From Protonemura montana (taxonomy: Eukaryota; Arthropoda; Insecta; Plecoptera; Nemouridae), in NCBI GenBank assembly GCA_947568835.1, contig OX387608.1:1104501-1168500 (forward strand): a stretch of DNA of 64,000 bases. The letters run 5' to 3'. This document shows, one piece after another, positions 5,519-59,148 of the stretch. Numbering within the stretch: the first letter of the stretch is position 1; each line of letters opens with the position of its first letter. The position numbers were made by a program, and so were the translations under genes. The notes under the pieces were generated by a model that did not search any database, had not been told where the DNA came from, and saw only the letters and a program-made list of their open reading frames with translations.

Positions 5519-8500
5519 ATGTGGTCTTGTGACGGATCTGGAGATGAAGAAAGCGAACCGTTCCTCGTGAATTTCTTCAATGAGGACGAAACTAGAGGAA
5601 CGTCGAGTCCTCGTGGGACACAGTCAAGTATCGAACCTGGAGCTGGCAGCCAACAGGTGGGGTCTGGACCAGTTGACAACGCGCAGATGACGCTGACTGT
5701 TGTAGAAAGGTGATCAACAATTGTTTGTCTGGGTTTGATTAGATGTCGGTGCACCAAGTGTGTGCTTGAAAAGTCATTTCATGTCAATTCTTGTGTTAAT
5801 TATTTTAAATTAAGTGTGACATTACACTGGGTAATTTCGAAGAGTGGTGCAGTCGTAATGTACCTCTGCTTCTATCGAATAATATTATTTCTAGAAATGT
5901 TTAATAAGCTTGAATTAATTGTTCCATCGTGAAGTTAAATTAGTTTTATCAATTTCGAGTTAGAAACTATAATAAACTAGGGATGGAGAAAAAAATCGAT
6001 GTATCGATATATGGTTTGGTGAAGTGGTTCAGAGCCGTGAGTGAGTGAATGTTGTGGTGAGTCAAGGACTTGCTCTGTTGAGATTCACTAAAAAGGACGT
6101 AAAAAGACCTTTTACGACCACAAGTCGATTACAACAGAGCAAGTCCGTCACTCGCCACAACATATCGATATATATATATGATATTGCCTGTTATCTATTT
6201 TCTGCAATTAATCTGAAAATTATAATATGATAATTCATTGATATGGACATCAATATCAGAGCAGTTAAGTGTTTGGAAATATCGATATTTCAATATAGGT
6301 ACCGATATGATATTATCAAGTTGCTCCAGCCCTATAATAAACCTTGACTGAAGTCAGGTGTGTAGGTAACTTCATGATCCCCCTTCAGGGGATCTCTTAT
6401 CCCACCCCCGCGAAAGCTGGAATATGTGTGTCCGGATAGCTCTGTTGGTAGAGCACCCGACCGGAAATTGAGAGGTCCCGGGTTCGGTTGCACATATTTC
6501 CAGTCTAGCTTCCTTTCCTTCATGAACAATGTTTAAGTTTTTAGGCGTATCCCTGCTACTAGTTGGATTCTCCCATAACTCCCTGCCTGCTAGTAAGTTG
6601 AAAGAGTTCCCTGTCCAGCTCGGAGCACCGTGACGATGGCTTGGTGTCCGCGGAGGAGGAGATTCCTCTCAGCGCCGGACAGAAGCAGCTTCACGTAGCT
6701 GTACGCGAGAGAGATCTGAACCAGCTGCAGGTCAGTATTGTGGTCGTAATATTGTTACGACCAGAATTTAGACTGTTGCTTATGCTAGGCTGAAAGATCT
6801 CGCTTGGCAATGTGAGAGGTCGTAACTTGCCGGGATGTAATTTAGATTCTACTTTGAAAGAAAGTAATACAATAATGCGCTTACCAAAACTGTAGTTCAC
6901 CATAAGAACCGTTCAAACCGGGAGCTGGTTCCTCTCTGCCACACTTTCTAACCACATGAATACAGCTGCATGCGGCAGTTCACATAAGCACCAACTGCAA
7001 ACATGCAACAATATTCTTATCAAAATGTATTCACAGTGACCATAAGTGGGCACTTTCCTGACAGAGTTGTCAAAAATGCACAGAGCAGGTAAGAACAATT
7101 AGTTGGTCAATGTAGGCATGAAACATCAATCCAGGGACCTGTAATGCTGGACCTTTCTTAATTATTTGTCTTGGACGGATTTGGTAGAATTATAAAAATG
7201 TAGCTCTCGAATTCAAAAGAAGATCTTAGGTAGAGCTAAAGACGTCCCTGCGTTGTAGCTTCTACTGGAATCGCCCCACGACGTGGACGCCGTCGACAGC
7301 AGCGGCAAATCAGCGTTGTTTTTTGCTGTCGACTGCAAGTGGGATGATGGTGTTCGGCTCCTGATCAACGCTCGGGCCGACGTTCGAACTCGCTACGTCC
7401 GCGCTAACGACAAGACGGTGCTGCAAATGGCGGTCAAGGGCGACAACGCCGACATTACGAAACTCATCGTCGATGCCGCCGGGAAGTACGAAGTGTACGC
7501 AGAGGTAAATCCAGGCTTTAAAGTTTATTGTAGCAAATTTTTAGTCACCAATTTTAAGGTTTTTATTAATTATAAGGAACACTAATAACATCTTAAAAAT
7601 TGGTGGCCAATAAATAATTTGAAAAAATGCTTATCAATTAAATCAATATTTATTTGGTAAAACATGAACCAGAATGATAAGACTAATTCGCTGCTATACA
7701 AAGCGCTGTCTTGACACGGGCCCTGTTTAGCAAGGCTAATAGCGTCGGTAAATGAGTGAATGATGATCTGGCTTAACGTCCCTTCCGAAGGACGGTACAA
7801 CGCGAACAACAGCATTCCTCCACAAATCTATGCTGTCAAGAGGTTGATAAGCAAGGCGAGTGAAGTTGCTGTACTAACTTTCATCCCTCCAACCTCTCTC
7901 CCGAACAGAACTGGTCATGTGTATGATGGTCACCCATCCAATACCTGACTCAGCGCAGTGTTGCTTAACTTGCATCGCTCCAACCTCTCTCCCGAACAGA
8001 ACTGGCCATGTGTATGATGGTCACCCATCCAATACCTGACTGAGCGCAGTGTTGCTTAACTTTCATCCCTCCAACCTCTCTCCCGAACAGAACTGTCATG
8101 TGTATGATGGTCACCCATCCAATACCTGACCCAGCGCAGTGTTGCTTAACATTCATCCCTCCAACCTCTATCCCGAACAGAACTGGTCATGTGTATGATG
8201 GTCACCCATCCAATACCTGACTCAGCGCAGTGTTGCTTAACTTGCATCGCTCCAACCTCTCTCCCGAACAGAACTGGCCATGTGTATGATGGTCACCCAT
8301 CCAATACCTGACTGAGCGCAGTGTTGCTTAACTTTCATCCCTCCAACCTCTCTCCCGAACAGAACTGTCATGTGTATGATGGTCACCCATCCAATACCTG
8401 ACCCAGCGCAGTGTTGCTTAACTTTCATCCCTCCAACCTCTATCCCGAACAGAACTGGTCATGTGTATGATGGTCACCCATCCAATACCTGACTGAGCGC

Positions 8501-10989
8501 AGTGTTGCTTAACTTTCATCCCTCCAACCTCTCTCCCGAACAGAACTGGTCATATGTATGATGGCCACCCATCCAATACCTGACCCAGCGCAGTGTTGCT
8601 TAACTTTCATCCCTCCAACCTCTCTCCCGAACAGAACTGGTCATGTGTATGATGGTCACCCATCCAATACCTGACTCAGCGTAGTGTTGCTTAACTTTCA
8701 TCCCTCCAACCTCTCTCCCAAACAGAACTGGTCATGTGTATGATGGCCACCCATCCAATACCTGACCCAGCGCAGTGTTGCTTAACTTTCATCCCTCCAA
8801 CCTCTCTCCCTAACAGAAGTGGTCATGTGTATGATGGTCACCCATCCAATACCTGACCCAGCGCGCGTACTTCCGATATTGCACGGGGACCGGTGTTTCC
8901 AACACACCTGTTCTTGAACTTAAGGTCAATTGGCTAAGTATTTAAGTGACAAGGTAACTCTAAGAATAATACACAACGATAATTTTGCTTTCTCTAGATC
9001 GTCAACGTCCTCAACAACGACGGCATGTCACCACTATTTGTGGCTATCACGAGAGGCAACGTAGAAATCGTCAAGACTCTGCTTGCCGCTGGTGCTGATG
9101 TCACGTTGCTGGACAACAAAAAGCGCAACGTCGCTCACATGATCAATAAGAACTCAAAGCAAATCCTGAATCTTATCAGTGAACATCACGCTGACAAATT
9201 GAAGACACTGGTTGGTCAACGTTCCGGCGACCAGCGTCAAACCACACCCCTGCATTCGGCAATCTTGCGTGGCGATATACAAGCCGTACAATTCCTTCAC
9301 ACCAAGTTTCCTGAATCGCTGAACGACGTGGCGTATATTTCCGACGATAGTAACTCCTGTGTCGAAGCAAATGTTCTCCATCTTGTTTCGCAAAGCGCCA
9401 GATCTGACGTTTTGAAGCACTTTGTCACGGCTCTCAGCGAGAAAACTTCAGACTTTCAAGCGCAGATCGACGGGATCACGGACAAAGGTTACACGCCGCT
9501 GCATTTCGCTTTGGTGCGACGACAGGTCGACTTTGCGATGGCGTTGATTAGTGCGGGCGCTGACTTGTCCGCCGAATTTGAGGACAAAAACGGCGAGACG
9601 CGGTCGGCGATAGACGTTTTCATACATCAGGTGCCGGCTTCGGTCGAAAAGCTGACGAAGATTTTCGACGAGTCTGTCGAAAGGACTAAGAGAAAGACGA
9701 CGGTGACCGTAGATTATGAAGTCTTGTGGTCAGGTGAGGGCACGGACAACAGTTTCAAAGTGCTGGCTGCCCTACAAGAGACCGGCGATAAGTTGGGTCA
9801 AGAAGCGTTATTCGAACATCCATTGGTGGAGAGTTACTTGCATTTACATTGGAAACAAATACAAGGCCCGTACACAGTTCTTGTCGTCATCAACATCATG
9901 TTTTCTATCTCTTTAAGCCTCCTGATTCTTTTCAACTTGCTTTCCATTCAACTCGGTGCTGAGATAGTCAAGTGGCCAATGATTTTTTTCGGCTTTCTTC
10001 TTGCCATTCACGAGCTGGAATGCATTGGAAAGAAGCAACCGTTGAAATACCGAGCCGAGTTTCTTATGAAATGCGTCTGTTACATTTTAGCCGGATGTAT
10101 CTTCTTCCCTTCACTTCCCCAGGAGTTATCTGCTTTCGCCGTTCTGCTATCGTGGTTTGAGTTGCTTTTACTGATATCACGCATCCCAAACACTGGCTAC
10201 TACATGCTCTTCTTCATCGAAATTGCCATAAAATACCTGAAACTTCTCGCGTCTTTCTTCTTCCTGATCATCGGCTTTGTAATCGCCTTCATGGTGATAT
10301 CCAGACTTGCACCGCCCTTTGACAAGATAATTCCCTCGACAATGAAGACCGTTGTCATGATGGCTGGAGAGTTTGATTACGAAAACATGGCCCGTGCCTT
10401 GATGAAGCCCGGCGTGAATCAGCCCATCGCATCGCAGATCGCTGCCACCGTTGTCTTCGCGTTGTTCGTAGTCTTCATCGGATTGGTGCTCAACAACTTG
10501 TTCGTCGCCGTTGCCGTCATCGACGTGTCCAAGCTTCGGGTCATCAGCAAGCGGACGGGTTTTCTTGCGGTTTACAGCAAGTTTTTGCTAGCACGACGCT
10601 GCAAGCTTTATCCTTCGGGCGTGATGCTGATGCAGTTCAGGTTTCTTTGTGCCGTTGTTCGCTTGTTTAACCGGAAACTGGTCGAACATTGGGAGACGTT
10701 TCGAAACATCGAAAGGAAATACGATATCGGTGTGTTACTGGAGACCAGAACGCTGAAGTTTCCGAGAGAGTTGAACACGGCAATTATTTCCAGAGGTTAC
10801 AAGAGCAGGGAGGATTTTAAAAACAAGTGTCGAGAGGAAAAGGAAGCCGCTGATAATAAAAAGACGCGGGCACAAGATAGAAATCAGTTGCTTGAAGCAA
10901 TCAACAAGATCAACTCGGAGATAACTGGTTTGAAGCAGTCGCTTTCAGAAGCATTCAATTCAAGACGTCAAGATGTCAACGATCTGTGA
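5519..10989 (+). CDS. TRPA-family ankyrin-repeat cation channel (painless/pyrexia-like)
   Basis: Four exons with matching phases: 5519-5709, 6619-6730, 7259-7504 and 8998-10989, giving 846 residues. The N-terminus is acidic and low-complexity. Residues about 155-400 hold ankyrin repeats (for example TPLHFALVRRQVDFAMALI). Six hydrophobic segments follow at about 475-497, 505-522, 537-554, 561-582, 590-620 and 662-692. The pore loop between the last two reads MMAGEFDYEN, like the Gly-Glu filter of TRPA channels. A lysine/glutamate-rich helical tail ends the protein. Insect members sense noxious heat, chemicals or touch at the plasma membrane of sensory neurons; the ligand here is unknown. Total length is close to painless-type proteins. 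The first exon is the weakest: its ATG is the first in frame after a stop and its donor (GTGATC) is non-ideal, but the phase fits. Intron 1 carries a hairpin and a tRNA-like SINE; intron 3 a 5S-like array. Confidence 0.9.
6051..6161. repeat. Inverted repeat (hairpin) in TRPA intron 1
   Basis: Two 30-base arms at 6051-6080 and 6132-6161 are reverse complements with three or four mismatches (both contain GGACTTGCTCTGTTG when read in the same sense). A smaller palindrome (CGTAAAAAGACCTTTTACG) sits in the loop. Outside both arms lie CGATATAT tracts. Looks like a short foldback insertion. Confidence 0.85.
6412..6525 (+). mobile_element. tRNA-like SINE head, second family (SINE-B)
   Basis: A tRNA-like stretch with A box TAGCTCTGTTGGTAGAGCA and B box GGGTTCGGTTGC spaced as in tRNA genes. 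It is flanked by inverted copies of CTGGAATATGTG. The T arm is imperfect, so this is a pseudo-tRNA or SINE, not a functional tRNA gene. Confidence 0.6.
7680..8920 (-). mobile_element. 5S rRNA-like SINE with about ten tandem heads (TRPA intron 3)
   Basis: On the minus strand each 91-bp monomer contains AAGTTAAGCAACACTGCGC and TATTGGATGGGTGACC, matching the A-box and C-box regions of the 5S rRNA internal promoter. About ten monomers run head to tail. At the left end is the shared body/tail (GGGACGTTAAGCC, GACGCTATTAG); at the right end the 5S-like leader (ACACCGGTCC). A three-monomer block is duplicated with a 272-bp shift (7970 versus 8242). Confidence 0.85.
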
Positions 10990-11247
10990 GTGAACGACGG
11001 AGATAACTGGTTTGAAGCAGTCGCTTTCAGAAGCTTTCAATTCAAGACGTCAAGATGTCAACGATCTGTGAGTGAACGACGGAGATAACTGGTTTGAAGC
11101 AGTCGCTTTCAGAAGCTTTCAATTCAAGACGTCAAGATGTCAACGATCTGTGAGTGAACGACGGGGATAACTGGTTTGAAGCAGTCGCTTTCAGAAGCAT
11201 TCAATTCAAGACGTCAAGATGTCAACGATCTGTGAGTGAACGACGGA
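10919..11247 (+). repeat. 82-bp tandem repeat made from the end of the TRPA coding exon
   Basis: Four head-to-tail copies start at 10919, 11001, 11083 and 11165. The first is the last 71 bp of TRPA coding sequence, including the TGA, plus the first bases of the 3' untranslated region. The later copies lie wholly in the untranslated region and are nearly identical. Confidence 0.95.
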
Positions 11248-16100: not shown

Positions 16101-19100
16101 CGCTGTGAAAACAATCGCCTCCAGACCTTCGTCGGCGTACGAAACATTTTCCGTTGCGCAGACCTCCAGCACCTTGGAGAGCACCTGCAGGTGGCAGCAC
16201 AATCAGATGGTCAACATTCGATACTGACTACAATATCTACTGTCTCTCAGCCAAGCTGAAGAACTAAACATGTGTATAATAATAATAATAGTAATATATA
16301 ATAATAAATAGATGAAATCTTATTTAAATTGCAAACGCTTGCAATGCTCGGGGTACTTTATTATTATCAACACTAAAACCGTCTCAAAAATTGATGCCCA
16401 AACGGGGACTCGAACCCCGATCTCCACCTGTCGTGGGTGTTGCTCTAACCAATTGAGCTACTGAGTATTTACAGCCTCTTGGTTCTACTCCGTGGAGATC
16501 TCATCAAGTACACTAAAATCATCTCAAAAAGCCAATGTCTAAGTAGCTCAAAGCTGTCAAGAGGTTGATAAGCAAGCCAAGTGAAGTTGCTGTACTAACT
16601 TTCATCCCTTCAACCTCTCTCCCGAACAGAACTGGTCATGTGTATGATGGTCACCCATCCAATACCTGACCCAGCGCAGTGTTGCTTAACTTTCATCCCT
16701 CCAACCTCTCACCCGAACAGAACTGGTCATGTGTATGATGGTCACCCATCCAATACCTGACTCAGCACAGTGTAGCTTAACTCAACGTCCTACGCACCTC
16801 AGCGTCGGAGAGTCTGCCGTATCGCAACATGGCACAGCGCGACTGAATCGGCTCGATGATTTTATCGGAGCTGTTGCACGCGAGCGCGAACCTCGTGGTT
16901 GAGCTGTACACCTCCATCGTCCGGCGTAAAGCCTGCTGCGCGGCCTCAGTCATGCTGCGGACAGGTTTACAATCATGTTACAATAGGTCCAAGGGATTGG
17001 CAAAACAAATAAAAAAATACACCAAATTGCAAGGATGACCAAATTTTGATTAGCATCTTTATTCATGCAAACCTTGACAAATGATGTACATTTATTTTGA
17101 ACGGTAGAGGTGGGTTTTAAGCCGCGATCTTATGGAGATGCAGTTGATGGTTTTACTGTGATTGGTTGTTAAAATGACCTGAGTCGATGTTTTGTCTAGG
17201 GTTTGTTAGTTTATAACAAAAGAACCACATGAATAAAACAATTGACTTGTCTAGGCATCCTTAATGCATCTAAGTAGAAAAGCAAAGTCAGTAATTCAAA
17301 GAACTGAAATATTTGGCATTTTCGACATAAAATTACCCTGATTTTTTGTATATAGTCACACCTGTTTTGTTACCTAGTCTTTTTAAACTAGTGCTAAGGT
17401 TAAATTAAGTAAACACAAGTCTATAAACCATAATGGCGTGGGATCTTTTTAGATTGAAGCCGAATTGACTTCTCGTTTTGTAGGGTTTAGCTCACCTGTC
17501 CGCCTCGTCGAGAATCACAATCTTGTGGCGACCGCGGGGAAGAGTGACTTTCTGCTGCGCGAACATCTTGATTTTGTTGCGGACAACGTCGATACCACGT
17601 TCGTTAGAAGCGTTTAGCTCTAAAACAGCGGTGCTCATGAGCGGGCCAAGAAGTGCCCGGCACAGACAGAGCACTGTGGTGGTCTTGCCGACGCCAGGAG
17701 GACCCTGCAGAGATATATTCATCTCAAATAACCTGGATTCGTATTTCAAATAACCTGAATTTTAGTTCCCTCAAAGAGCTCGTGATTTTTCAAGTGTTTT
17801 CTTCGGTAGTTTAAGGGGTTTTCATAATTTTCACTGCTTTAATGGTCAAAATTGTTTGAAAATGTGTTTCATAAACTCTAAAATTAGCATTGAAATCATA
17901 GGAACTACTGACAAAAAGGTTGTACATTGAGTGAAAATGGTAAATATTTGATACCAAAAATGAGTTTCCAGTGAGGAAAGAAATTCACTGTGTTTTTTCT
18001 GTTGGACGGTTTTTTTTTTCTAATTTAATGGATCATTTATAAAAAATTTTGTTTAAGGTCAGCACAAATATCACAACGTGAAATTCACTTGTCGCTGAAA
18101 ACTCTGCTCAAGGTTTTAAGAAAGTAAAACATTTCCTATTTGACCACAACAAGTAAATATTTTGAATATTGCACTGGAAACATACTATTTTCAGCTTTTT
18201 TATGTTTTCTAGCTGATGGGTAGATTTCGTAGTTGCACCCCTGAAGAGCAGAGATTCTTCCAACACACTTTGAAACTTACACTGATAATAATATTTGGAA
18301 CATTGCCCTCCTTTGCGAATACGTCAAGACGAGATATGGTGTCTGCATTACCCACTATGTCACCAAAGGTTTGGGGACGATATTTTTCAATCCTGTAACA
18401 AATTTAAAGATGATAGTTAATTGAGAGGTCAATTAAGCTTCAGCAACAAATTGTTCTTAATGCCAAAGGTTTTTTGAAACAATTTCTGAACACGTAAGAA
18501 TGAAGGACTTACTTCTTGCCAGCGTAGAAATATAAATATAAAAACTGGCTTACAAGGGAACCTAATAAACGATAATCTAGACATTACATTTGGAGTATAC
18601 ATTGCAAGCAAATTGAAAGCTTCCAGCTCCCAAACTCAGTTATTAAAAGCTATCTTGTTTATCAGAACTAGTTGACTGAAATGTAACTTCTTATCGAAAC
18701 TTAAGTCTAGGGATTGTTGCTGAGCAATTCCGTCAACGCACTGCTCAGGCGGTGACAGCACCTAGTACTGATTCCAATTCTCTGTGGACGACAGATTCGG
18801 TAGTATAGATCTTTGCAGTCACAAACAAAAACAGAGAAATGTTGGATAATTCACGCCAAACATCTATGGCAAATGTTTCGAAAATCACCATCACCATCAC
18901 CATGCCATCACCATCACCATGCCATCACCATCACCATGCCATCACCATCACCATGCTATCACCATGACCATGCTAGGTACTGCAAGTTTTATGCTGCAAG
19001 CTAACCTCTTCAAAGAAAACTTACCACGGCAGACTCATTTGTTTTCTTTCAGCATAACTTTTTGTTTTTGCAGATCCGACAGAAGAGGACGGTTCCTGCT

Positions 19101-19113: not shown

Positions 19114-19892
19114 TTTCAGCAGTTCGCCAGGCATATCACACACTTAGCTTTTAATAAATTACTTGCTATCCTCTCTATATCCTGCGAACCTCGTCCAGTC
19201 CCTTCCAGTCTAGCGCGCCTTTATGCATAATGGCTATACGCACGAACTGGCGTGAGAGGATAGACAAAAGGCGCGAACTACTTTAAAAATATAATTAACC
19301 AAAATAACCCCTTAATAAGTTATAATAAACACTTGAACGTTTGTTAAAAGGCGCAAAGTAGCAGATCATAATCACAAAAACCTTTGATGAAGTTCTTTGG
19401 AAATTCACATAATCAACTTATTATTGATTAACTTTCAAACGTAGGCTCCCTAATATGATATCCCAAACATGAACACAAGAAAATTTTGGACGAAAGTCTA
19501 AAATTTTTACTTATGGTGGAATTGTTCAGTTTTTCCTTCATTCAACAATCAATCTCAAGAAATACAAACCTTCTTTTTCAACAAAGACTGTCAATCAAAC
19601 GCTTGAAGACGATTGACAGATTATCAATTCAACATCTAGGTAAATACGTTCTAATCTATACTTCAAATCAAAATCAATTATTACATTTTTCTTTACAGCT
19701 TTCAAGACATGTGAAGAGATAACAGTACAATTCTGTAGTCTGGTTTGTCTACTTAAGTAGCATTTTAAGTGGCACATCCCAGCTTTGGCAAAGGCAAGAA
19801 TTTGATCAAATAAGTTTGATGTTCCTTCAAAAATATTGTATCACAGCAGCAGGAACTAAGTAGTCCACAATTTGACTAAATTTTTGCCCAAA

Positions 19893-27268: not shown

Positions 27269-30200
27269 ATGGACGCTGGTGCCCCATGGATGGAGGCGTT
27301 AGTGCAAGGCGATTTGCCAATTGTTGAGTTGACGAACTATGATCTACTCGGTCTTGATAAAGAAGATGACAATTTGGGCAACCAAGATTTTGGTGTCATT
27401 GAACCGCTAGTTGAAATTACAAGCCCAGAGCAGGAGCTAGAAAATGTCGACAATCTGTCAGAAAATTCATTCTGCATGCTCGAGCCAGAAGTTCGTATCA
27501 ATACACCTGAAATAGAACATAACGACGAGCCAGAACTTCCTATTACCGAACCAGAGGTGCATATCGATGAGCCGGAACTTAATTTAGACGAGCGAGAAAC
27601 TGAAATGGTTTCACCGGAAACTGAAAATAGTTTGCCCACGCCAAACGTATTGTCAGAGCGAACCGTACAAGTAGAGACGCCGGACGTCCAGATCGTGCCC
27701 CAAGAGATTCTGCTCGACTCTCCCGAAATAGTGACCATCGAAGACACTCCAGAAAAATTTACCGTCAAAGAGCCGGTGAACAGCGCCCACAAAGGACCGA
27801 CGAAGCAACTAGTTTTCAATCAAGATCCAGGCTACGAATTAAAAGAATTGCGAGTCAAACTAGTGAGAATCGACGAATCTCTGACGATTATTAACAACAC
27901 GGTCAGGATACCTGCGCACTTGTGCGACAGAGACCTGGACAGTATGTCTAATGGACTGCGATCATCGCGAGCCTCGTCGCTTAGTTCCAGAATGCGTCGA
28001 GAACGCACGTCAACCAATCAGCGGTCTCCGTACTCTCTCCGGATCAAGACCGAGCCTGCCGAGGAAGACGATGCCTCGTACTCGAACGAGGTTCGATTCA
28101 ATCCGTACGCAATCGCTGCCCCGAAGACGGCCGCCAACAAGCGTACACCCGGCGGCGCGAAAGCGAAACCCACTAAAAACAGGCCGCCGCAACCTGATGA
28201 CCCTGACAACGATTTCCTACCGACAGACTTCCTCGAAGCTACGATGAGCGAAGAAGATTCTCCAGCCAAGCAGCAAACCTGGCCGGTCCAGGGCGACAGC
28301 AACTTGTTGAAAAAGACTTTGACGTTTGCGGACGAGCGGCAGACGCAGAACGGGACCACGATCTACGCTGCCGAGAAAATGAAGACTGGTCCTCAAAGAC
28401 TTTCTTCGTTTCGGAGTGGGTTCGTTGTGCCGGAGGTCAGGGATGCCAACAGCTTGGATATGTTGGCGAAAGTGATGGCCAACTCCAGTGTGTCGCTGAC
28501 TCATCGACCGAAGCCGGGGAGTACTGGGCGCGGCGGTGGGACCAAGAGGCCGCCGGGACAATGTGAGTATCTTAACAGAGTTAAAAGTTATCGGGAAAAT
28601 AGAAAAATGTTATTGGAAAAAAAATTTAGTACCAATTCAATTCCCTAAACCTGCGTGCGTTTTCAGCTTTAATTAAAGACCCTTCGCGTGGTTTCGTGTT
28701 TTTGTCGAATCGATTTCTCAAACACGAGAACAACTTCTTTACCGTATGATGGTTTTTAGACTCATGTCTACTTGATGTAAACTTAGCAATAGTTTTAACA
28801 AAAACTATTTCAACTGGGTTTTGAATGCTAAGTGAAGAACAACTAAATTTACCAACGTTTCGTAACTTGTACCTGTTACTTTATCAAGGGTTAGAGCAGT
28901 CCTGACAATTTTCAAATAACAAAAGAACCACATAAAATTATAACAATTACCAAGTTCAAGCTTCCTAAATGCATCTAAATAAAATAATCAGGGTCAATAA
29001 CTGAATAACTAACGTATTTTGTATTTTCTGAAATAAAATCCCAAACAAACTGGCGTTTTTTACTAACTAACCAATTATGTGTATAGAAAATTATGTGAAA
29101 TTCTTCACATTTTTGAAAACAAGTGAGATAAATGATCCACATAAGAATCCACCATGCCTTGGTAGTCATAAAAACAGAAAGCCGACTAACAATGTGTCTT
29201 CATCTTTCATCCGGAGGGTTTTATCTTCTAAAATCTCATCTTTGAAATGTTTGTTCTGTTCCAGCTGGCATGGTCAACCATGATCACCAATACTCGTCAA
29301 GGTTAGTTAAATTACTTTTTCATTTTTCATCTTCGGCAAGATTAATTCTAAACAGAAACAGTCGTGTGAACGGTCGTTTAGAATACGCTGCTGATCTTGG
29401 TGCTCAAACTAAGTATTCACAGCCTCTTGGTTCTACTCCTTGGAGATCCGTCATTCTCATCAAATACACTAAAATTCTTTTAAAAATTACATGTCCAAGT
29501 AGCTCAATTGGTTAGAGCAACACCCGCGACAGGTGGAGATCGGGGTCCAAGTAGCTCAATTGGTTAGAGCAACACCCGTGACAGGTGGAGATCGGGGTCC
29601 AAGTAGCTCAATTGGTTAGAGCAACACCCGTGACAGGTGGAGATCGGGGTCCAAGTAGCTCAATTGGTTAGAGCAACACCCGCGACAGGCGGAGATCAGG
29701 GTCCAAGTAGCTCAATTGGTTAGAGCAACACCCGCGACAGGCGGAGATCAGGGTCCAAGTAGCTCAATTGGTTAGAGCAACACCTGCGACAGGTGGAGAT
29801 CGGGGTCCAAGTAGCTCAATTGGTTAGAGCAACACCCGTGACAGGTGGAGATTGGGGTCCAAGTAGCTCAATTGGTTAGAGCAACACCCGTGACAGGCGG
29901 AGATCAGGGTCCAAGTAGCTCAATTGGTTAGAGCAACACCCGCGACAGGTGGAGATTGGGGTCCAAGTCCCCGTTTGCGCATCAATTTTTGAGAAGACAT
30001 AAGCGTTCATAATATTATGAAATACCCCGCGCCTAGCAAGTGTTAGCAATTTAAATCAGCTTTCACAGAATTAATCTCTCGATTGATTGGCTGTTGCTAA
30101 GTAAAGAAGAAATTAACAAACTGTTAGGTTTTAAACAGATTACTGAAAAACAGATACAACTTTGCCAAAAAAATCTACAATCCTAAAATAATTTTTAAAA

Positions 30201-34925: not shown

Positions 34926-35320
34926 ATTATCAACACTATAACCTCTCAAAAATTGATGCCCACACGGGGACTCGAATCTTGATCTCCACCTGTCGCGGGT
35001 GTTGCTCTAACCCATTGAGCTACTTGGACATTTGCTTTTTGAAACGATTTTAGTGTATTTGATGAGAATGACAGATCACCAAGAAGTAGAACCAAGAGGC
35101 TGTGAATACTCGCAGTCACTCTGATTCTAGTGACGTTATATCACGTCACAACCTGTCAATCTCGAGTAACTCCACTAATCAAATACATTAAAATCATCTC
35201 AAGAAGCCAGTGTCCAAGTAGCTCAATGGGTTTGAGCAACACCCCAGGCAACAATAAAATACCCCGGGCATTGCAAGCGTTTGCAATTTAGATAAGATTT
35301 CATCTCAGCACAAAACACGT
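34926..35320 (-). mobile_element. SINE-A, full minus-strand copy followed by a partial plus-strand copy
   Basis: A complete single-head element on the minus strand (tail, T arm, head, body ending near AGTAACTCCA) is followed at about 35177 by a plus-strand body fragment, a decayed head and the AT-rich tail. This is the clearest copy for defining a full-length unit, since the head is not multiplied. Confidence 0.85.
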
Positions 35321-37600: not shown

Positions 37601-37601
37601 T

Positions 37602-38460
37602 CAGGTGACCATCGTACACATGATCAGTTCTGTTCGGGAGAGAGGTTGGAGGGATGAAAGTTAAGCAACACTGTGCTGGGTCAGGTATTGGATGGGTGAC
37701 TATCATACACATGACCAGTTCTGTTCGGGAGAGAGGTTGGAGGGATGAAAGTTAAGCAACACTGCGCTGGGTCAGGTATTGGATGGGTGACCATCATACA
37801 CATGACCAGTTCTGTTCGGGAGAGAGGTTGGAGGGATGAAAGTTAAGCAACACTGTGCTGGGTCAGGTATTGGATGGGTGACTATCATACACATGACCAG
37901 TTCTGTTCGGGAGAGAGGTTGGAGGGATGAAAGTTAAGCAACACTGCGCTGGGTCAGGTATTGGATGGGTGACCATCATACACATGACCAGTTCTGTTCG
38001 GGAGAGGGGTTGGAGGGATGAAAGTTAAGCAACACTGTGCTGGGTCAGGTATTGGATGGGTGACCATCATACACATGACCAGTTTTGTTCGGGAGAGAGG
38101 CTGGAGGGATGAAAGTTAAGCAACACTGTGCTGGGTCAGGTATTGGATCGGTGACCATCATACACATGACCAGTTCTGTTCGGGAGAGAGGTTGGAGGGA
38201 TGAAAGTTAGTACAGCAACTTCACTCGCCTTGCTTATCAACCTCTCGACAGCATGGATTTGTGGAGGAATCCTGTTGTTCGCGTTGTATCGTCCTTCGGA
38301 AGGGACGTTAAGCCGGTGGTACCCTTGGTCTTCGACAGGAGTAGGCTACGTGCCGGCACCGGGTTTCCCCTCCTCCCTTCTAGACTAGTTTAAGTTCATC
38401 ATCATCCACTCATTCACTGACGCCATTAGACCAGTGACCAGCTGTCAAAACAGTGCTATG
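37602..38460 (+). mobile_element. 5S rRNA-like SINE, about seven tandem heads, plus strand
   Basis: Head-to-tail 91-bp monomers with AAGTTAAGCAACACTG and GGTATTGGATGGGTGAC. Then come the unique body (CAGCAACTTCACTCGCC), the GAAGGGACGTTAAGCC block and the tail (CACTCATTCACTGACGCCAT). The best plus-strand example of the complete element order. Confidence 0.9.
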
Positions 38461-38894: not shown

Positions 38895-39560
38895 TAAGCA
38901 GTGTTTAACATAGCACTGTTTTGATAACGGGTCAACTGGCACTGGTCTAATAGCGTCGGTGAATGAGTGGACGATGATGAGCCTAGAAGGAAGGAGGGGA
39001 AACCCGGTGCCGGCACGTAGCCTACTCCTGTCGAAGACCAAGGGGACCACCGGCTTAACGTCCCTTCCAAAGGACGGTGCAACGCGAACAACAGGATTCC
39101 TCCACAAATCCATGCTGTCGAGAGGTTGATAAGCAAGGCGAGTGAAGTTGCTGTACTAACTTTCATCACTCCAACCTCTCTCCCGAACAGAACTGGTCAT
39201 GTGTATGATGGTCACCCATTCAATATATGACTCAGCGCAGTGTTGCTTAACTTTCATTCCTCCAACCTCGCTCCCGAACAGAACTGGTCATGTGTATGAT
39301 GGTCACCGATCCAATACCTGACCCAGCGCAGTGTTGCTTAACTTTCATCCCTCCAACCTATCTCCCGAACAGAACTGGTCATGTGTATGATGGTCACCCA
39401 TCCAATACCTGACCCAGCGCAGTGTTGCTCAACTTTCATCCCTCCAACCTCTCTCCTGAACAGAACTGGTCATGTGTATGATGGTCACCGATCCAATACC
39501 TGACCCAGCGCAGTGTTGCTTAACTTCTGTGATCTCACGAGGACCGGTGTTTTCATTTAA
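38895..39560 (-). mobile_element. 5S rRNA-like SINE, about four heads, minus strand
   Basis: Tail and body on the left, then monomers, ending in the 5S-like leader GTGATCTCACGAGGACCGGT. With the copy just upstream it forms a tail-to-tail pair around a GC-rich island at 38580-38830. Confidence 0.88.
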
Positions 39561-40399: not shown

Positions 40400-40765
40400 A
40401 CGCTCTTTATCGCGTTGTAGGATGAGCGTAGATTGATTGATTTGTGCTGTTTGACGACGCACTGTTTTGACAACTGATCATGCGGTACTGGTCTAATGGC
40501 GTCGGTGAATGAGTGGATGATGATGAGGATGATGATAAACCTAGCCTAACCTCCAACCTCTCTCCCGAACAGAACTGGTCATGTGTATGATGGTCACCCA
40601 TCCAACACCTGACCCAGCGCAGTGTTGCTTAACTTTCATCCCTCCAACCGCTCTCCCGAACAGAACTGGTCATGTGTATGATGGTCACCCATCCAACACC
40701 TGACCCAGCGCAGTGTTGTTTAACTTCGGTGATCTCACAAGGACCGGTGTTTCCAACACGCCAAA
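40400..40765 (-). mobile_element. 5S rRNA-like SINE, two heads, minus strand
   Basis: Most of the body is deleted: the tail (GCGTCGGTGAATGAGTGGAT) is followed after a short gap by two monomers and the leader GATCTCACAAGGACCGGTGT. Confidence 0.85.
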
Positions 40766-41304
40766 GTTTTCCGTAGGATGAGCGTTTAAAGCGATAAAGA
40801 CGTTAAGTAAGGCGTAAAAACTGCCAAATACCCTCCAAAAATACTTAAAAAATGCAGATCTGTAAGTTTGAGATGTGAAAAATCTCAATGCGGTCAACAT
40901 ATAAGCAAAATATCATTAAGTTGATGAACTTATCAACAGTAGGTTGATACCAATTTGAGCCTTTAGGTGCAGTCAGCCATTTAACCTGGAGTATCTTTAT
41001 GTGAAGATATCAATAAATCTCTCCTCTCCAAGGTAAATCTCTCCTCTCCGAGGTAAATCTTGGAGGGAAATGTCCCACCAAGATGGTCAACCATGCAACA
41101 TAGCACCTTGCACGGTACAGCTAGAAGACTTCGATGACGATCACGTACCTGCGCCGTGAGCATCGCTTTTTCGGACTCTCCGGTCGAGATTAGCACAGAG
41201 TCTGATACTCTTCAGCCCATGGCTTGGCTTGTACTTCTTGCCGGGGGACGAAAGTAGGGTTAGGATGCCCTCTGTACTGGGAGTAGTCAGTTTTGTGAAT
41301 CAAT

Positions 41305-42236
41305 CTAAAACTTATTGATTCGTTGTGTTTAACTCAGCACTGTTTTGATAGCGGGTCATGTGGCACTGGTCTAATGGCGTCTGTGAATGAGTGGATAATG
41401 ATTAAACTAACAAGAAGGGAGGGTGCGAAACCCGGTGCCGGTCTTTGGTGCCCATGGTCCCAAAGAACACCGGCTTAACGTACCTTCCGAAGGACGGTAC
41501 AACGGGAACGACAGGATTCCTCCACAAATCCATGCTGTCGAGAGGTTGATAAGCAAGGCGAGTGAAGTTGCTGTACTAACTTTCATCTCTCCAACCTCTC
41601 TCCCGAACAGAACTGGTCATGTGTATGATAGTCACCCATCCAATACCTGACCCAGCTCAGTGTTGCTTAACTTTCATCCCTCCAACCTCTCTCCTGAACA
41701 GAACTGGTCATGTGTATGATGGTCACCCATACAATACCTGACCCAGCGCAGTGTTGCTTAACTTTCATCCCTCCAACCTCTCTCCTGAACAGAACTGGTC
41801 ATGTGTATGATGGTCACCCATCCAATACCTGACCCAGCGCAGTGTTGCTTAACTTTCATCCCTCCAACCTCTCTCCCGAACAGAACTGGTCATGTGTATG
41901 ATGGTCACCCATACAATACCTGACCCAGCGCAGTGTTGCTTAACTTTCATCCCTCCAACCTCTCTCCTGAACAGAACTGGTCATGTGTATGATGGTCACC
42001 CATCCAATACCTGACCCAGCGCAGTGTTGCTTAACTTTCATCCCTCCAACCTCTCTCCCGAACAGAACTGGTCATGTGTACGATGGTCACCCATACAATA
42101 CCTGACCCAGCGCAGTGTTGCTTAACTTTCATCTCTCCAACCTCTCTCCCGAACAGAACTGGTCATGTGTATGATGGTCAGCCATCCAATACCTGACCCA
42201 GCGCAGTGTTGCTTAACTTCGGTGATCTCATGAATG
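41305..42236 (-). mobile_element. 5S rRNA-like SINE, about seven heads, minus strand
   Basis: Complete tail and body followed by seven monomers and the truncated leader GGTGATCTCATG. Alternating CCATCCAATACC and CCATACAATACC variants suggest block duplication of two monomers. Confidence 0.88.
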
Positions 42237-42852: not shown

Positions 42853-43430
42853 TAACTTTCATCTCTCCAACCTCTCTCCCAAAAAGGACTGGTCATTGGT
42901 ATGATAGTCACCCATCCAATACCTGACCCAGCACAGTGTTGCTTAACTTTCCTCCCTCCAACCTCTCTCCCGAACAGAACTGGTCATGTGTATGATGGTC
43001 ATCCATCCAATACCTGACCCAACGCAGTGTTGCTTAACTTTCATCCCTCCAACCTCTCTCCCGAACAGAACTGGTCATGTGTATGATGGCCACACATCCA
43101 ATACCTGACCCAGCACAGTGTTGTTTAACTTTCATCCCTCCAACCTCTCTCCCGAACAGAACTGGTCATGTGTATGATGGTCACCCATCCAATACCTGAC
43201 CCAGCACAGTGTTGTTTAACTTTCATCCCTCCAACCTCTCTCCCGAACAGAACTGGTCATGTGTATGATGGTCACCCATCCAATACCTGAACCAGCGCAG
43301 TGTTGCTTAACTTTCATCTCTCCAACCTCTCTCCCAAACAGAACTGGTCGTGTGTATGATAGTCACCCATCCAATACCTGACCCAGTACAGTGTTGCTTA
43401 ACTTCAGTGATCTCAAAGGGACCGTTGTGC
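42853..43430 (-). mobile_element. 5S rRNA-like SINE, about six heads, no body
   Basis: Six minus-strand monomers and a 5S-like leader (AGTGATCTCAAAGGGACCG). The body and tail are missing on the left. Confidence 0.85.
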
Positions 43431-43819: not shown

Positions 43820-44215
43820 TTAATGCTAACATCAACGATTGATAAACATGTATCTCGATATTTTAATTCGTAATTATTTAATTGCAGTGGTTTGTTGAAA
43901 AGGACGGCAGCAAGCACCATCAAGTGGCACCTACCGTTACCAAGTGTTGCTGGCCTCGTTTTCTCAGCAGCAATCGCTATCGGGTGGCACCTACCGTTAC
44001 CACGTGTTGCCGGCCTCGTTTGCTCGGCAGCAAGCGCCATCTGGTGGCACCTACCGTTACCACGTGTTGCCGGCCTCGTTTGCTCAGCAGCAAGCGCCAT
44101 CGGGTGGCACCTACCGTTACCACAAGTTGCCGGCCTCGTTTGCTTAGCAGCAAGCGCCATCGGGTGGCACCTACTGTTACCACGTGTTGCCGGCCTCGTT
44201 TGCTCAGCAGCTAGT
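43820..44215 (+). repeat. 60-bp minisatellite with CACGTG, five copies
   Basis: A 60-bp unit containing CCGTTACCACGTGTTGCC and CTCAGCAGCAAGCGCCATC. It sits beside about 85 bp of unique sequence (AACGATTGATAAACA) that also flanks the nine-copy array at 50415-51030. The unit is open in several frames on both strands because 60 is a multiple of three. Confidence 0.95.
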
Positions 44216-44314: not shown

Positions 44315-44460
44315 GCCCACCGAAGTTAAGCAACACTGCGCACGGTCAGGTATTGGATGGGTGACCACTGACCATCATACACATGACCAGTTCTGTTCGG
44401 TAGAGAGGTTGGAGGGATGAAAGTTAAGCAACACTGCTCTGGGTCAGGTATTGGATGGAT
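44315..44460 (+). mobile_element. 5S rRNA-like SINE fragment, plus strand
   Basis: One and a half monomers starting CCGAAGTTAAGCAACACTGC, with the 5S-like order A region, then GGTATTGGATGGGTGACC. Confidence 0.8.
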
Positions 44461-49084: not shown

Positions 49085-49935
49085 GCGGTCTTTAGCGACG
49101 CACTGTTTTGACATCTGGCCATGCGGCACTGGTCTAATGGCGTCGGTGAATGAGTGGATGATGATGAACCTAACCTAGTCTAGAAGGGAGGAGGTGAAAC
49201 CCGGTGCCGGCACGTAGCCTACTCCTGTCGAAGACCAAGGGGACCACCGGCTTAACGTCCCTTCCGAAGGACGGTACAACGCGAACAACAGGATTCCTCT
49301 ACAAATCCATGCTGTCGAGAGGTTGATAAGCAAGGCGAGTGAAGTTGCTGTACTAACTTTCATCCCTCCAACCTCTCTCCCGAACAGAACTGGTCATGTG
49401 TATGATGGTCGACCACCCAATACCTAACCCAGCGCAGTGTTACTTAACCTTCATCCTTCCAAACTCCCTCCCGAACAGAACTGGTCATGTGTATGATGGT
49501 CGCCCATCCAATACCTGACTCAGCGCAGTGTTGCTTAACTTTCATCCCTCCAACCTCTCTCCCGAACAGAACTGGTCATGTGTATGATGGTCACCCATCC
49601 AATACCTGACCCAGCACAGTGATGCTTAACTTTCATCCCTCCAACCTGTCTCCCGTACAGAACTGGTCATGTGTATGATGGTCACCCATCCAATACCTGA
49701 CCCAGCGCAGTGTTGCTTAACTTTCATCCCTCCAACCTCTCTCCCGAACAGAACTGGTCATGTGTATGATGGTCACCCATCCAATACCTGACTCAGCGCA
49801 GTGTTGCTTAACTTTCATCCCTCCAACCTCTCTCCCGAACAGAACTGGTCATGTGTATGATGGTCACACATCCAATACCTGACTCAGCGCAGTGTTGCTT
49901 AACTTCGGTGATCTCACAAGGACCGGTGTTACCAA
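49075..49935 (-). mobile_element. 5S rRNA-like SINE, about six heads, complete tail and body
   Basis: Tail (GACGCACTGTTTTGACA, GGCGTCGGTGAATGAGTGGA), body with CTTAACGTCCCTTCCGAAGG, about six 91-bp monomers and leader (GGTGATCTCACAAGGACCGG). Good for defining full-length structure. Confidence 0.9.
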
Positions 49936-50414
49936 CATAGCAAACTGTTCGGTGTTCACTGAATACGCAGACTCATCTCCAAGAATTGTCGTCGTGTGCG
50001 AGCTGATATTAAGGCTGGTCTTCATATAATGAACATGATACAGGAATGCAATTATTTACTCCCAAGTAAATAGTGCTGTTCTTTGGAGTCAATTTAGATG
50101 CTTCCAAGAATGAGTTGCCTGCCATAAAAGAGTCCGCTCTCCGTTTTGTTCCTTAAGTATGGGTTAGTAATTTCTTTCCAAATGTTGTTGGAATAATTAG
50201 AGAGACAATAGGACACGGCACAATGCCTTGTCAGGAACACTGATATATCAAACAACTTGGATAGCGGTTGTCATGGAGATACTTTGAAGCCATGGCCGCC
50301 ATCTTGAGAGTCACATATTTTGAGTTCTCTCAAAGAGACCGTGATATTTTAAATGTTTTCATCGGTAGTTTTTGTAGTTTTCGAGTATTTTGTTTGTTCT
50401 TAAAGAAGCAATCT

Positions 50415-51030
50415 TTGTTAATGCTAACCTCAACGATTGATAAACAGGTCTCAATATTTTGAGTCATAATTATTTAATTGTAGAGGTTTGTTAAAAAGGA
50501 CAGCAGCAAGCGCCATCGGGTGGCATCTACCGTTACCACGTGTTGTCGGCCTCGTTTGCTCAGCAGCAAGCGCCATCGGGTGGTACCTACCGTTACCACG
50601 TGTTGCCAGCCTCGTTTGCTCAGCAGCAAGCGCCATCGGGTGGCACCTACCGTTACCACGTGTTGCCGGCCTCGTTTGCTCAGCAGCAAGCGCCATCGGG
50701 TGGCATCTACCGTTACCACGTGTTGCCGGCCTCGTTTGCTCGGCAGCAAGCGCCATCGGGTGGCACCTACCGTTACCACGTGTTGCCGGCCTCGTTTGCT
50801 CGGCAGCAAGCGCCATCGGGTGGCACCTACCGTTACCACGTGTTACCGGCCTCGTTTGCTCAGCAGCAAGCGCCATCGGGTGGTACCTACCACGTGTTGC
50901 CGGCCTCGTTTGCTCAGCAGCAAGCGCCATCGGGTGGCATCTACCGTTACCACGTGTTGCCAGCCTCGTTTGCTCAGCAGCAAGCGCCATCGGGTGGTAC
51001 CTACCACGTGTTGCCGGCTCGTTTTCTCAA
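50415..51030 (+). repeat. 60-bp minisatellite with CACGTG, nine copies
   Basis: Same unit and same left flank as 43820-44215. Two units have lost CGTTAC and are 54 bp. A separate site reading AAGATGGCGGC on the minus strand lies just upstream at about 50294-50304. Confidence 0.95.
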
Positions 51031-53892: not shown

Positions 53893-54584
53893 TCATGCTT
53901 GTCAAGTACCCTCAATCCTCCAGTTTTTTAAAATAAGTGAAAACGTGCTTCAAATCGTTGAGGTTGGGCAGCGCGTGGCATTGGATTGAAGTTAGGTGCG
54001 CACGCTGCGACCTTCTGCCCGAGTCCTTGGCATTGACACTCACCGAGTCAAGGCAGACGACATGCACTCATCAATGAGCTTCACTCAACTTCAGAGAGAA
54101 AGGAATTCCCCAAATCTTCATGCAATCAATTGTTTCCTCTTCAATAAAACACAACTCTCTGGCTCTTTCAGGACATCCAAACAAATCAATGATTGCTGCT
54201 AACGCCAGAGATTCGAGATCCGAGACCTAAGAAGTTTTTCTTGGTTCCCTTTTGATTTTACTAAAGAAACTGGAAATCTCACAGCTGCTTGTTTCGATTC
54301 TCGGCCCCCTGTAATCATCTCAAAGTAATTGACAGAAAAACGCAACGTGTATTACCAAATTCAAATGTGGGTCATCGTACTCGATGACCACTTCCTGCAT
54401 GGCTGGTTATTGCGTGGCTGTTGCACTTTGGGAAGTTTCGCTGTTATTTTGTGGAATGAGCATTTCAAGCCGTTTGTAAACAAAAATAACGAAGGTTTAG
54501 TATTACCCTTGTTTATGCTTGGAAATTCGTGGGACATCATAAAAAAAACACAACAAATTGAATCTCAAACCCTCCTGAATGCAA
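53893..54584. other. Spacer between two arrays
   Basis: No supported exon. Short frames at 53996-54202 and 54329-54560 have no family features. Confidence 0.4.
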
Positions 54585-55545
54585 GGCAGACATGGCGCTC
54601 TCACTACCAGGATAGCCGGCCACCAGGATCGAACCTGGGACCTCTCGAATGCAAGGCAGACATGGCGCTCTTACTACCAGGATAGCCGGCCACCAGGATC
54701 GAACCTGGGACCTCCCGAATGCAAGGCAGACATGGCGCTCTCACTACCAGGATAGCCGGCCACCAGGATCGAACCTGGGACCTCTCGAATGCAAGGCAGA
54801 CATGGCGCTCTCACTACCAGGATAGCCAGCCACCAGGATCGAACCTGGGACCTACCGAATGCAAGGCAGACATGGCGCTCTCACTACCAGGATAGCCGGC
54901 CACCAGGATCGAACCTGGGACCTCTCGAATGCAAGGCAGACATGGCGCTCTTACTACCAGGATAGCCGGCCACCAGGATCGAACCTGGGACCTACCGAAT
55001 GCAAGGCAGACATGGCGCTCTCACTACCAGGATAGCCGGCCACCAGGATCGAACCTGGGACCTCTCAAATGCAAGGCAGACATGGCGCTCTCACTACCAG
55101 GATAGCCGGCCACCAGGATCGAACCTGGGACCTCCCGAATGCAAGGCAGACATGGCGCTCTCACTACCAGGATAGCCGGCCACCAGGATCGAACCTGGGA
55201 CCTCTCGAATGCAAGGCAGACATGGCGCTCTTACTACCAGGATAGCCGGCCACCAGGATCGAACCTGGGACCTACCGAATGCAAGGCAGACATGGCGCTC
55301 TCACTACCAGGATAGCCGGCCACCAGGATCGAACCTGGGACCTCTCAAATGCAAGGCAGACATGGCGCTCTCACTACCAGGATAGCCGGCCACCAGGATC
55401 GAACCTGGGACCTCTCGAATGCAAGGCAGACATGGCGCTCTCACTACCAGGATAGCCGGCCACCAGGATCGAACCTGGGACCTCTCAAATGCAAGGCAGA
55501 CATGTCGCTCTCACTACCAGGATAGCCGGCCACCAGGATCGAACC
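54585..55545 (-). repeat. 70-bp tRNA-Ala-like tandem array, about 14 copies
   Basis: Read on the minus strand, each 70-bp unit resembles a tRNA: an A-box-like GGTAGTGAGAGCGC, an anticodon-arm region with TTGCATTCGAGAGG, and a perfect B box and T arm, CCAGGTTCGATCCTGG. Spacing and content are closest to tRNA-Ala (TGC). The acceptor stem is not conserved, so these are tRNA-derived repeats rather than functional tRNAs. Confidence 0.85.
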
Positions 55546-55964
55546 AGGGATCGCCGATCGAAGGCCAGTCTCATTGGTTACAAGCGATCTCCTTGCTGCA
55601 GACTTCAGTGCAGGCTTCGCGAGGATGACCGAGCAGTTATGTGTTTGACATGCTGGTCTTTGTGGTACTTCATAACAACAATATGACGCAATTTTCTTGA
55701 GCCAAGTTGGGAACAATATGGCGGCCATGCGGCACTGATTGCTGGTCTTTCTAACTGGAAGGCACGAGACTTTGCGTGCTGCGATTTGCGCCCTCCTCGT
55801 GCGTGGCCAGATCATGAACTTGATCTCTATCTAGGTGGACTACCTGTTATTGTTGGTGGAGTTTATGTTTATTACAACTGTTTTTTGGTTTTAAAAAAAA
55901 AGGACCTTGGTTTTAGCTGACGTTTCAACCACGTTGGCGAAGTCTTATATAATTGGAAACTCTT
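55546..55964. other. Spacer with a possible SINE body
   Basis: May include the non-tRNA part of the 70-bp family's parent element. Contains one ATGGCGGCCAT at about 55720. No gene seen. Confidence 0.35.
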
Positions 55965-56870
55965 ATAACCTCTCAAAAATTGATGCCCAAACGGGGATTG
56001 GAACCCCGATCTCCACCTGTCGCGGGTGTTGCTCTAACCAATTGAGCTACTTGGACCCCGATCTCCACCTGTCGCGGGTGTTGCTCTAACCAATTGAGCT
56101 ACTTGGACACCGGCTTTTTGAGACGATTTTAGTGTATTTTATAAGAATGACGGATCTCCAAGGAGTAGAACCAAGAGGCTGTGAATACTCACAGTCACTC
56201 TGATTCTAGTGACGCTATATCACGTCACAACCTGTCAATCTCTAGTAACTCCAGCTTGACGTTGGATGAGTTTTATGTTGTGAAATTTTATTTTAATTGA
56301 AAACGCTAGCAATGCGCTTTTTTAATATTAGAAACACTAATTCAACCTCTCAACAATTGGTTAGAGCAACACCCGCGACAGGTGGAGATCGGGGTCCAGG
56401 TAGCTCAATTGGTTAGAGCAACACCCGCGACAGGTGGAGTTCGGGGTCCAAGTAGCTCAATTGGTTAGAGCAACACACGCGACAGGTGGAGATCGGGGTC
56501 CAAGTAGCTCAATTGGTTAGAGCAACACCCGCGACAGGTGGAGATCGGGGTCCAAGTAGCTCAATTGGTTAGAGCAACACCCGCGACAGGTGGAGATCGG
56601 GGTCCAAGTAGCTCAATTGGTTAGAGCAACACCCGCGACAGGTGGAGATCGGGGTCCAAGTAGCTCAATTGGTTAGAGCAACACCCGCGACAGGTGGAGA
56701 TCGGGGTCCAAGTAGCTCAATTGGTTAGAGCAACACCCGGGACAGGTGGAGATCGGGGTTCAAGTCCCCGTGTGGGCAACAATTTTTGAGACTGTTATAG
56801 TGTTGATAATAATAAAACACTCCGCGCATTGCAAGTTTTTGCAATTTAAATGAGATTTTCTTTCTTCAAA
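55965..56870. mobile_element. SINE-A inverted pair: two minus heads, then eight plus heads
   Basis: A minus-strand copy with two tandem heads (55975-56105) and its body to about 56255 is followed by a tail fragment. Then comes a plus-strand array of about eight 52-bp heads, ending in a true T arm (CGGGGTTCAAGTCCCCG) and tail. The heads of the two copies point in opposite directions. Confidence 0.88.
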
Positions 56871-56914
56871 TCTCCAGTATTTGGGGAGGAATTGAGGAAA
56901 CGTTATTGACTATT

Positions 56915-57040
56915 AGTGGAATCCCGTTGTCCGCGTTGTACCGTCCTTTGGAAGGGACGTTAAGTCGGTGGTCCCCTTGGTCTCCGACAGGAGTAGACTA
57001 CGTGTCGGCACCGGGTTTCCTCTCCTCCCTTCTAGGATAA
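56915..57040 (+). mobile_element. 5S-SINE body/tail fragment
   Basis: Only GAAGGGACGTTAAG, GACAGGAGTAGACTACGTG and CACCGGGTTTCC remain. No 5S-like head is present. Confidence 0.75.
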
Positions 57041-58150: not shown

Positions 58151-58154
58151 AGTC

Positions 58155-59148
58155 ATAATGGTAACACCGGTCCACGTGAGATTACAGAAGTTAAGCAACA
58201 CTGCGCTGGGTCACCGTATTGGATGGGTGATCATCATACTCATACACATGACCACCTAACCTAACCTAACCTAACCTAACCTAACACTGCGCTGGGTCAG
58301 GTATTGGATGGATGACCATCATACACATGACCAGTTCTGTTCGGGAGAGAGGTTGGAGGGATGAAAGTTAAGCAACACTGCGCTGGGTCAGGTATTGGAT
58401 GGGTGATCATCATACACATGACCAGTTCTGTTCGGGAGAGTGGTTGGAGGGATGAAAGTTAAGCTACACTGCGCTGGGTCAGGTATTGGATGGGTGGCCA
58501 TCATACACATGACCAGTTCTGTTTGGGAGAGAGGTTGGAGGGATGAAAGTTAAGCAACACTGCGCTGAGTCAGGTATCGGATGGGTGGCCATCATATACA
58601 TGACCAGTTCTGTTCGGGAGAGAGGTTGGAGGGATGAAAGTTAAGCAACACTGCGCTGAGTCAGGTATTGGATGGGTGATCATCATACACATGACCAGTT
58701 CTGTTCGGGAAAGAGGTTGGAGGGATGTAAGTTAAGCAACACTGCGCTGAGTCAGGTATTGGATGGGTGATCATCATACACATGACCAGTTCTGTTCGGG
58801 AGAGAGGCTGGAGGGATGTAAGTTAAGCAACACTGCGCTGAGTCAGGTATTGGATGGGTGACCACCATACACATGACCAGTTCTGTTCGGAAGAGAGGTT
58901 GGTGGGATAAAAGTTAGTACAGCAACTTTACTCACCTTGCTTATCAACCTCTCGACAGCATGGATTTGTGGAGGAATCCTGTTGTTCGCGTTGTACCGTC
59001 CTTCGGAAGGGATGTTAAGCCGGTGGTCCTCTTGGTCTTCGACAGGAGTAGGCTACGTGCCGCCACCGGGTTTCCCCTCTTCCCTCCTAGTTACTCAAAG
59101 TACTACCACCATCGTCATCATCCGACAATTTACCGACATCATAAAAAC
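58155..59148 (+). mobile_element. 5S rRNA-like SINE with leader, CCTAA run, eight heads and tail
   Basis: Begins with the 5S-like leader (CACCGGTCCACGTGAGATTA) and first head. A 31-bp (CCTAA)n run at 58255-58285 follows, then about eight 91-bp monomers, body and tail. This is the only plus-strand copy that keeps both leader and tail. Confidence 0.9.

Follow-up and report, generated by a model that had tools for sequence, protein, structure and literature searches.

Tandem arrays of a 91-bp promoter module in the plecopteran Protonemura montana are the multiplied head of a true 5S-derived SINE with leader, body, tail, and target-site duplications. The arrays described here probably represent minisatellites born inside mobile elements in chromosome-end zones. 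Promoter-containing arrays lie mainly near contig ends and unrelated repeats occur there too, so the pattern looks like the birth of satellites rather than selection for promoters.

We analyzed a 64,000-nucleotide stretch of DNA (the window; C11:1104501-1168500) from a 258.5-Mb genome assembled in 34 contigs, which we treat as presumptive chromosomes. The contig measures 18.87 Mb, which places the window roughly 1.1 Mb from one of its ends. Tandem repeats identified by TRF make up 33% of it; the promoter-module arrays described below score from 192 to 1829, with units approximately 90-100% identical to their consensus, far beyond chance. An earlier note on this DNA had described three Pol III-type promoter modules, all amplified as arrays. 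We find the 91-bp unit at ten loci (1-11 units each), the 52-bp unit at seven (1-9 units each), and the 70-bp unit in a single array of 14 units; the 52-bp unit also occurs in single-head copies.

Anatomy of the 5S-derived SINE

SINEs derived from 5S rRNA (SINE3 type) consist of a 5S-like head, in which a leader precedes the internal control region, a body, and a short tail, are flanked by target-site duplications, and are not known to carry more than one head. The element studied here shares the 5S-like head, the body, the short tail, and the target-site duplications of the SINE3 type, but has 1 to 17 heads among 30 loci on C1. A complete copy starts with ACCGAACGGTTTGGCGTGTTGGAAACACCGG, followed by a 5S leader ending in CACCGAAGTTA and at least one copy of the 91-bp head, which ends in GATGAAAGTTA. 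The body after the heads starts with GTACAGCAACTTC and carries a CGTCCTTCGGAAGGGACG hairpin; an A+T-rich tail forms the 3′ end. By visual count, 14 of 21 copies have simple repeats of the AAAT, AATC, or AAT type after the body. The letters of the tail hairpin gave no match in a text search of the literature. In single-head copies, the head comprises the 5S leader, the internal control region, and a spacer of ~54 bp, with AAGTTA repeats on both sides.

The 5S origin proposed for the 91-bp module is confirmed by two matches to Rfam RF00001 (5S_rRNA; 40659-40774 and 49833-49953, both on the minus strand) and by alignment of leader and head to a full-length 5S gene (C11:70-188) over nt 16-92 of that gene. 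The 91-bp unit retains the portion aligning to about nt 48-92. The first 1.2 kb of C11 (C11:1-1200) begins with this gene (Rfam, 116.7 bits).

The longest array in the window (7875..8864, −) has 11 units of 91 bp, the 5′-most truncated, and its tail runs on below 7874. Two arrays have seven units: one with a truncated first unit (37604..38209, +) and a tail starting at 38210, the other with a partial leader and a tail (41577..42219, −). A leader and a tail also accompany four units at 39157..39526 (−) and six heads at 49354..49953 (−), the latter including the second Rfam match and flanked by a possible 7-bp target-site duplication, and the two units at 16596..16782 (−) are followed by a short tail piece and then by a tRNA-like element. 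The earlier note had each 5S array attached to a body or tail, and we find a head-tail junction at seven of the ten loci. It is missing from the leader with two heads at 40550..40774 (−), which contains the other Rfam match (51 bits), from the six units with a leader at 42853..43404 (−), which lack a tail, and from the one head plus truncated second head at 44329..44458 (+), likewise tailless. The remaining locus (58194..58916, +) consists of a leader, one interrupted head, seven further heads, and a tail. The interruption is a telomere-like (CCTAA)n stretch at 58254-58285; the 25-mer consisting of GACCA and (CCTAA)4 has a single exact match genome-wide and 54 matches at ≤2 mismatches. CCTAA/TTAGG is presumably the telomere type of arthropods, and our guess is that the stretch was inserted at a repaired break.

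For a sample from another contig, we took the first 30 head-tail junctions of C1 as 3-kb loci (L009-L038; 0.27-4.39 Mb). Both element ends were recognized at 18 loci, while 12 lacked a recognized end. Words of at least 7 bp are shared by the two flanks of 11 of these 18 elements, compared to nine of 306 mismatched flank pairs, and they occur in multi-head (6/10) and single-head (5/8) copies. The 5S element is a retroposed SINE whether or not its heads are multiplied. All five typed tails in the window (37604-58916) are of a short type, GGTCTTCGAC, and 22 of 27 typed tails in the C1 sample are of a long type, GGTGCTCTTCGAC; copies may therefore be more alike within one chromosome arm.

The tRNA-like element and other tandem repeats

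The 52-bp unit covers nt 1-52 of a tRNA-like sequence 73 nt long, which is present in full only in the last copy of an array. Its tRNA origin, as previously suggested, is borne out by Rfam at four copies and ARAGORN at three, and its A box is exact. The B-box place has two or three mismatches in each of the 17 units scored in the window that are inner or partial-first, versus none or one in the five scored copies that are terminal or single; the scoring leaves aside a unit cut by the window edge and three matches to unrelated sequence. GTYCAAGT repeats lie 52 bp apart, and in single-head copies the 52-bp segment lies between GTCCAAGT and GTTCAAGT.

Nine units at 29493..29981 (+) end in one extended to the tRNA-like 73-mer, and eight units at 56354..56778 (+), the first partial, end in a complete one with an exact B box. 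Two units at 55984..56108 (−) are divergent from the latter array. Single-head copies are found at 34981-35029 (−), at 35212-35244 (+; a partial head divergent from the preceding copy), and at 16416-16462, within an element at 16393..16467 (−) that adjoins a cut 5S-SINE tail. A further array of two 52-bp units (1..103, −), cut by the window edge, falls outside the range of 7680..59148 originally assigned to the modules. The earlier note attached the arrays of this family, too, to a body or tail; the tRNA module sits inside a longer, partly palindromic element, and it is not at the 5′ end, as conserved, partly palindromic sequence is found upstream of the 52-bp head. The divergent copies form pairs ~180-250 bp apart (55984-56778 and 34981-35244), which suggests a palindromic or fold-back parent.

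The 70-bp minisatellite (54577..55550, −; 14 units) has an exact B box in its unit consensus, and the best A box has three mismatches. As the unit has no Rfam match at E ≤ 1 and none by ARAGORN, the likeness to tRNA-Ala that had been noted is mere resemblance. We compared seven flanks (up to 900 bp) of four arrays (the window array, L069, L070/L083, and L084) and found no common sequence at E 0.001, so that no element body is seen. Judged by these four arrays, the 70-bp unit acts as a free-standing satellite. Occurrence as a satellite without SINE bodies, which would have spoken against the original proposal, thus applies to this family and not to the 5S unit, which resides in SINEs with target-site duplications.

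As a control we used a 60-bp minisatellite (43907..44211, also 50501-51005) whose best A and B boxes each have two mismatches. Among the matches listed, which are 100 of 1,866 at ≤3 mismatches, 28 on C11 are exact; each is no more than 1.9 Mb from an end, with 18 falling at 1.15-1.74 Mb, the other 10 at 17.02-17.50 Mb, and none between. In total, 15 of the 25 window arrays (period ≥10, ≥3 copies) are not Pol III-like, and these account for 14.4 kb of the 21.2 kb of tandem DNA. At the start of C1 (C1:1-1200), a 98-bp satellite fills the entire 1.2 kb. Two open reading frames in the window encode an ankyrin-repeat and ion-transport protein (9025-10989) and a 7tm_7 chemoreceptor (19872-21062).

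Head number along the contigs

Genome-wide, we counted 4,739 exact 5S head-tail junctions and 16,750 exact head-head junctions, while an alternative head-head junction at an equally long (6-bp) repeat occurs seven times. Exact inner junctions number 7,645 for the 52-bp unit and 709 for the 70-bp unit. The terminal 52-bp unit with its tail yields 78 matches at ≤3 mismatches over 98 letters, a figure not comparable with the exact counts.

Head number varies with position along C1 (33.12 Mb). Between 0.27 and 2.30 Mb, 17 of 21 sampled SINEs have 2-17 heads, compared to none of nine between 2.59 and 4.39 Mb (Fisher p = 5e-5); the array of L019 reaches the edge of its 3-kb locus, and some of the inner nine copies have a truncated head. 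TRF coverage, 91-mers included, ranges from 0.00 to 0.78 in the outer 21 loci and from 0.00 to 0.08 in the inner nine. Over the whole contig, 43 exact full inner 91-bp units are distributed over 0.49-2.10 Mb (6), 23.32 Mb (2), and 28.996-32.81 Mb (35); 41 of them are no more than 4.2 Mb away from an end. The stretch from 2.10 to 23.32 Mb still holds 67 exact 5S head-tail junctions.

We compared the positions of multi-head starts and single-head copies at defined divergence over 115 bp, using all matches without mismatches and, for C1-C3, those with one mismatch (both lists complete). The totals at ≤3 mismatches (829 and 1,621) were set aside because last or inner array units can match with exactly three mismatches. 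Lengths are known for C1 and C11; for other contigs, distances to the right end are lower bounds, with the end set at the largest coordinate observed. Among copies without mismatches, a contig end is at most 4 Mb away for 37 of 40 multi-head starts, versus 10 of 19 single-head copies (p = 0.0009). The difference holds when C14 is omitted (31/33 versus 10/16, p = 0.010) and for left ends only (20/23 versus 8/17, p = 0.013), a test that drops 17 multi-head and two single-head copies at unclear right ends. At ≤1 mismatch on C1-C3, the counts are 52/58 versus 17/25 (p = 0.025). Ranking by distance to the end gives p = 0.54 at zero mismatches and p = 0.0005 at one mismatch. On C1 alone (≤1 mismatch; 8 single-head, 16 multi-head), no cutoff is significant (p = 0.65, 0.36 at 4 Mb, and 0.09). 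Apart from C1 alone and the rank test at zero mismatches, the arrays show a stronger end preference than their parent SINE, single-head copies themselves being mildly end-enriched. That the bias holds among unmutated copies speaks against age being its sole cause.

The seven unmutated multi-head starts on C14 include five at 8.9-10.6 Mb and another at 5.8 Mb, making this contig either an exception to the end bias or simply a short contig. Tandem repeats also occur in two interior loci of this contig (L006 and L008; C14:5.4-10.6 Mb), away from its start. Among the 100 52-bp junctions listed for C1, 46 lie at 0.54-1.36 Mb, 14 at 19.0-28.9 Mb, and 40 at 30.7-31.8 Mb, the last stretch listed, with no exact junction between 1.36 and 19.04 Mb; the 14 interior junctions speak against an origin tied to end zones. 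The exact 70-bp junctions (100 listed of 709) are located at C2:0.37-2.58 Mb in 99 cases and at C1:30.85 Mb in one. The common amplification process suggested in the earlier note is supported by the concentration of multi-head copies near the ends; such a process would be regional and not specific to promoters, as the 60-bp minisatellite behaves likewise.

Origin and spread of the extra heads

Units within a 5S array differ by a mean of 4.05 per 91 positions, versus about 5.1 between arrays (lowest of 500 permutations, 4.68), indicating that homogenization is present, with modest effect. Among 126 unit variants, 22 occur in at least two copies confined to one array, and some arrays show a two- or three-unit periodicity. 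Within-array likeness, private variants, and periodicity are the marks of local turnover. Unit position 16 is polymorphic (G/A) in 17 of 25 arrays and is A in all five interior singles with a full unit (of nine).

Our preferred reading, that minisatellites arose inside mobile elements in end zones, builds on the observed anatomy, target-site duplications, end enrichment, non-Pol III control, and within-array likeness of units; from these we infer a mechanism of recombination. The single-head 5S SINE would be the normal form, retroposing widely. In the terminal few megabases, a 5S head between AAGTTA repeats would turn into a tandem array of 91-bp units; unequal exchange or slippage, plus exchange with other arrays, would then alter how many units there are and which variants they carry. 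The tRNA-like element would undergo the same process with its GTYCAAGT repeats. Judging from their placement, the AAGTTA and GTCCAAGT/GTTCAAGT repeats could have seeded the first duplication. The process would hit any sequence in the end zone, and promoter content would be incidental. Independent microhomology-driven duplication at each locus is weakened by the near invariance of the junction (16,750 versus 7).

A rather unlikely alternative is that heads were multiplied within source elements, in a single event or a few, and that the multi-head form itself retroposes, with the end bias reflecting insertion preference or loss from interiors. The near-invariant junction fits this scenario, as do unit variants common to several arrays and the target-site duplications flanking multi-head copies. 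On C1, a CAT leader variant is present in eight of ten multi-head and none of eight single-head elements (p = 0.001), and the tails of multi-head copies show lower divergence (0.031, n = 16) than those of single-head copies (0.058, n = 10; p = 0.010); both observations suggest a younger multi-head lineage. However, only one of six recognized leaders in the window is of the CAT type, 22 of the 126 unit variants recur in one array only, and head number spans 1 to 17 inside one arm. Unmutated copies in interiors are also unevenly split, with 9 of 19 single-head copies but 3 of 40 multi-head starts. In a tree of tails, which omitted four loci with broken tails (L009, L020, L027, and L037) and used six of the ten window loci, the multi-head state requires seven changes (shuffled mean, 8.7); multi-head copies are not significantly grouped (71 of 500 shuffles as low), and a single multi-head clade is not rejected (p = 0.20), with 23 of 29 inner branches below 80% support. 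The invariant junction, shared variants, CAT leader, and tail divergence suggest one of two routes: near the ends, elements may exchange heads with one another, or the multi-head state may be inherited from source lineages whose copies persist mainly in these zones.

The earlier note had also raised selection for more promoter copies. On this view, additional Pol III promoters or TFIIIA/TFIIIC-binding sites would serve SINE transcription or chromosome-end organization. Promoter-like boxes in all three families and the retained internal part of the 5S unit would agree with it, yet we consider it very improbable and reject it as a main cause because the B box of inner 52-bp units is defective and units without promoters, such as the 60-mer control and the majority of window arrays, behave alike. 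The A box of the 70-bp unit is poor, and unmutated single-head 5S SINEs persist in interiors; selection on promoters was presumably absent. A related and highly speculative proposal is that end-zone arrays of the 5S internal control region are putative dense TFIIIA/TFIIIC platforms, kept to organize or insulate chromosome ends; if so, SINE insertion and head multiplication would renew such platforms. It is scarcely credible that the arrays are assembly artifacts, with repeats collapsed or falsely expanded, given thousands of junctions, many with their own target-site duplications, and inner C1 copies assembled with single heads.

The closest precedent is the SINE-derived subtelomeric satellites of squamates, sSat1-3, which are reported as tandem SINE portions that keep a SINE end and had mostly independent origins (PMC10702118). 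As presented there, several SINE families have a portion tandemly multiplied with the SINE end kept in the terminal unit, and the arrays favor subtelomeres while the parent SINE does not, all of which resembles our case (PMC10702118). Here, too, the array unit is a portion of a SINE found elsewhere in single copy. According to the same text, the squamate SINEs are tRNA-derived, whereas the main family here is 5S-derived; relative to that description, it is the head that is repeated here, elements often retain the two SINE ends along with their target-site duplications, and the arrays are short and very numerous (PMC10702118). Alu, named as a dimeric SINE in that report (PMC10702118), likewise has more than one monomer per element, but it amplifies as a dimer, whereas head number here tracks location. 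Human VNTRs, reported to be enriched in subtelomeres (PMC10097659), similarly cluster in the outer parts of arms; in our case, some of the seeds are identifiable SINE heads whose single-head form is extant. We found no report of multi-head 5S SINEs among the listed titles and beginnings of abstracts, a body of literature that leaves most subscription journals uncovered.

Overall, thousands of insertions of one SINE have apparently turned into short satellites according to their location, while the single-head form is extant. This would provide replicated cases of the birth of satellite DNA and of its control by chromosome position. Subtelomeric satellites derived from SINEs, described in reptiles, would then also be present in an arthropod host and include 5S SINEs.
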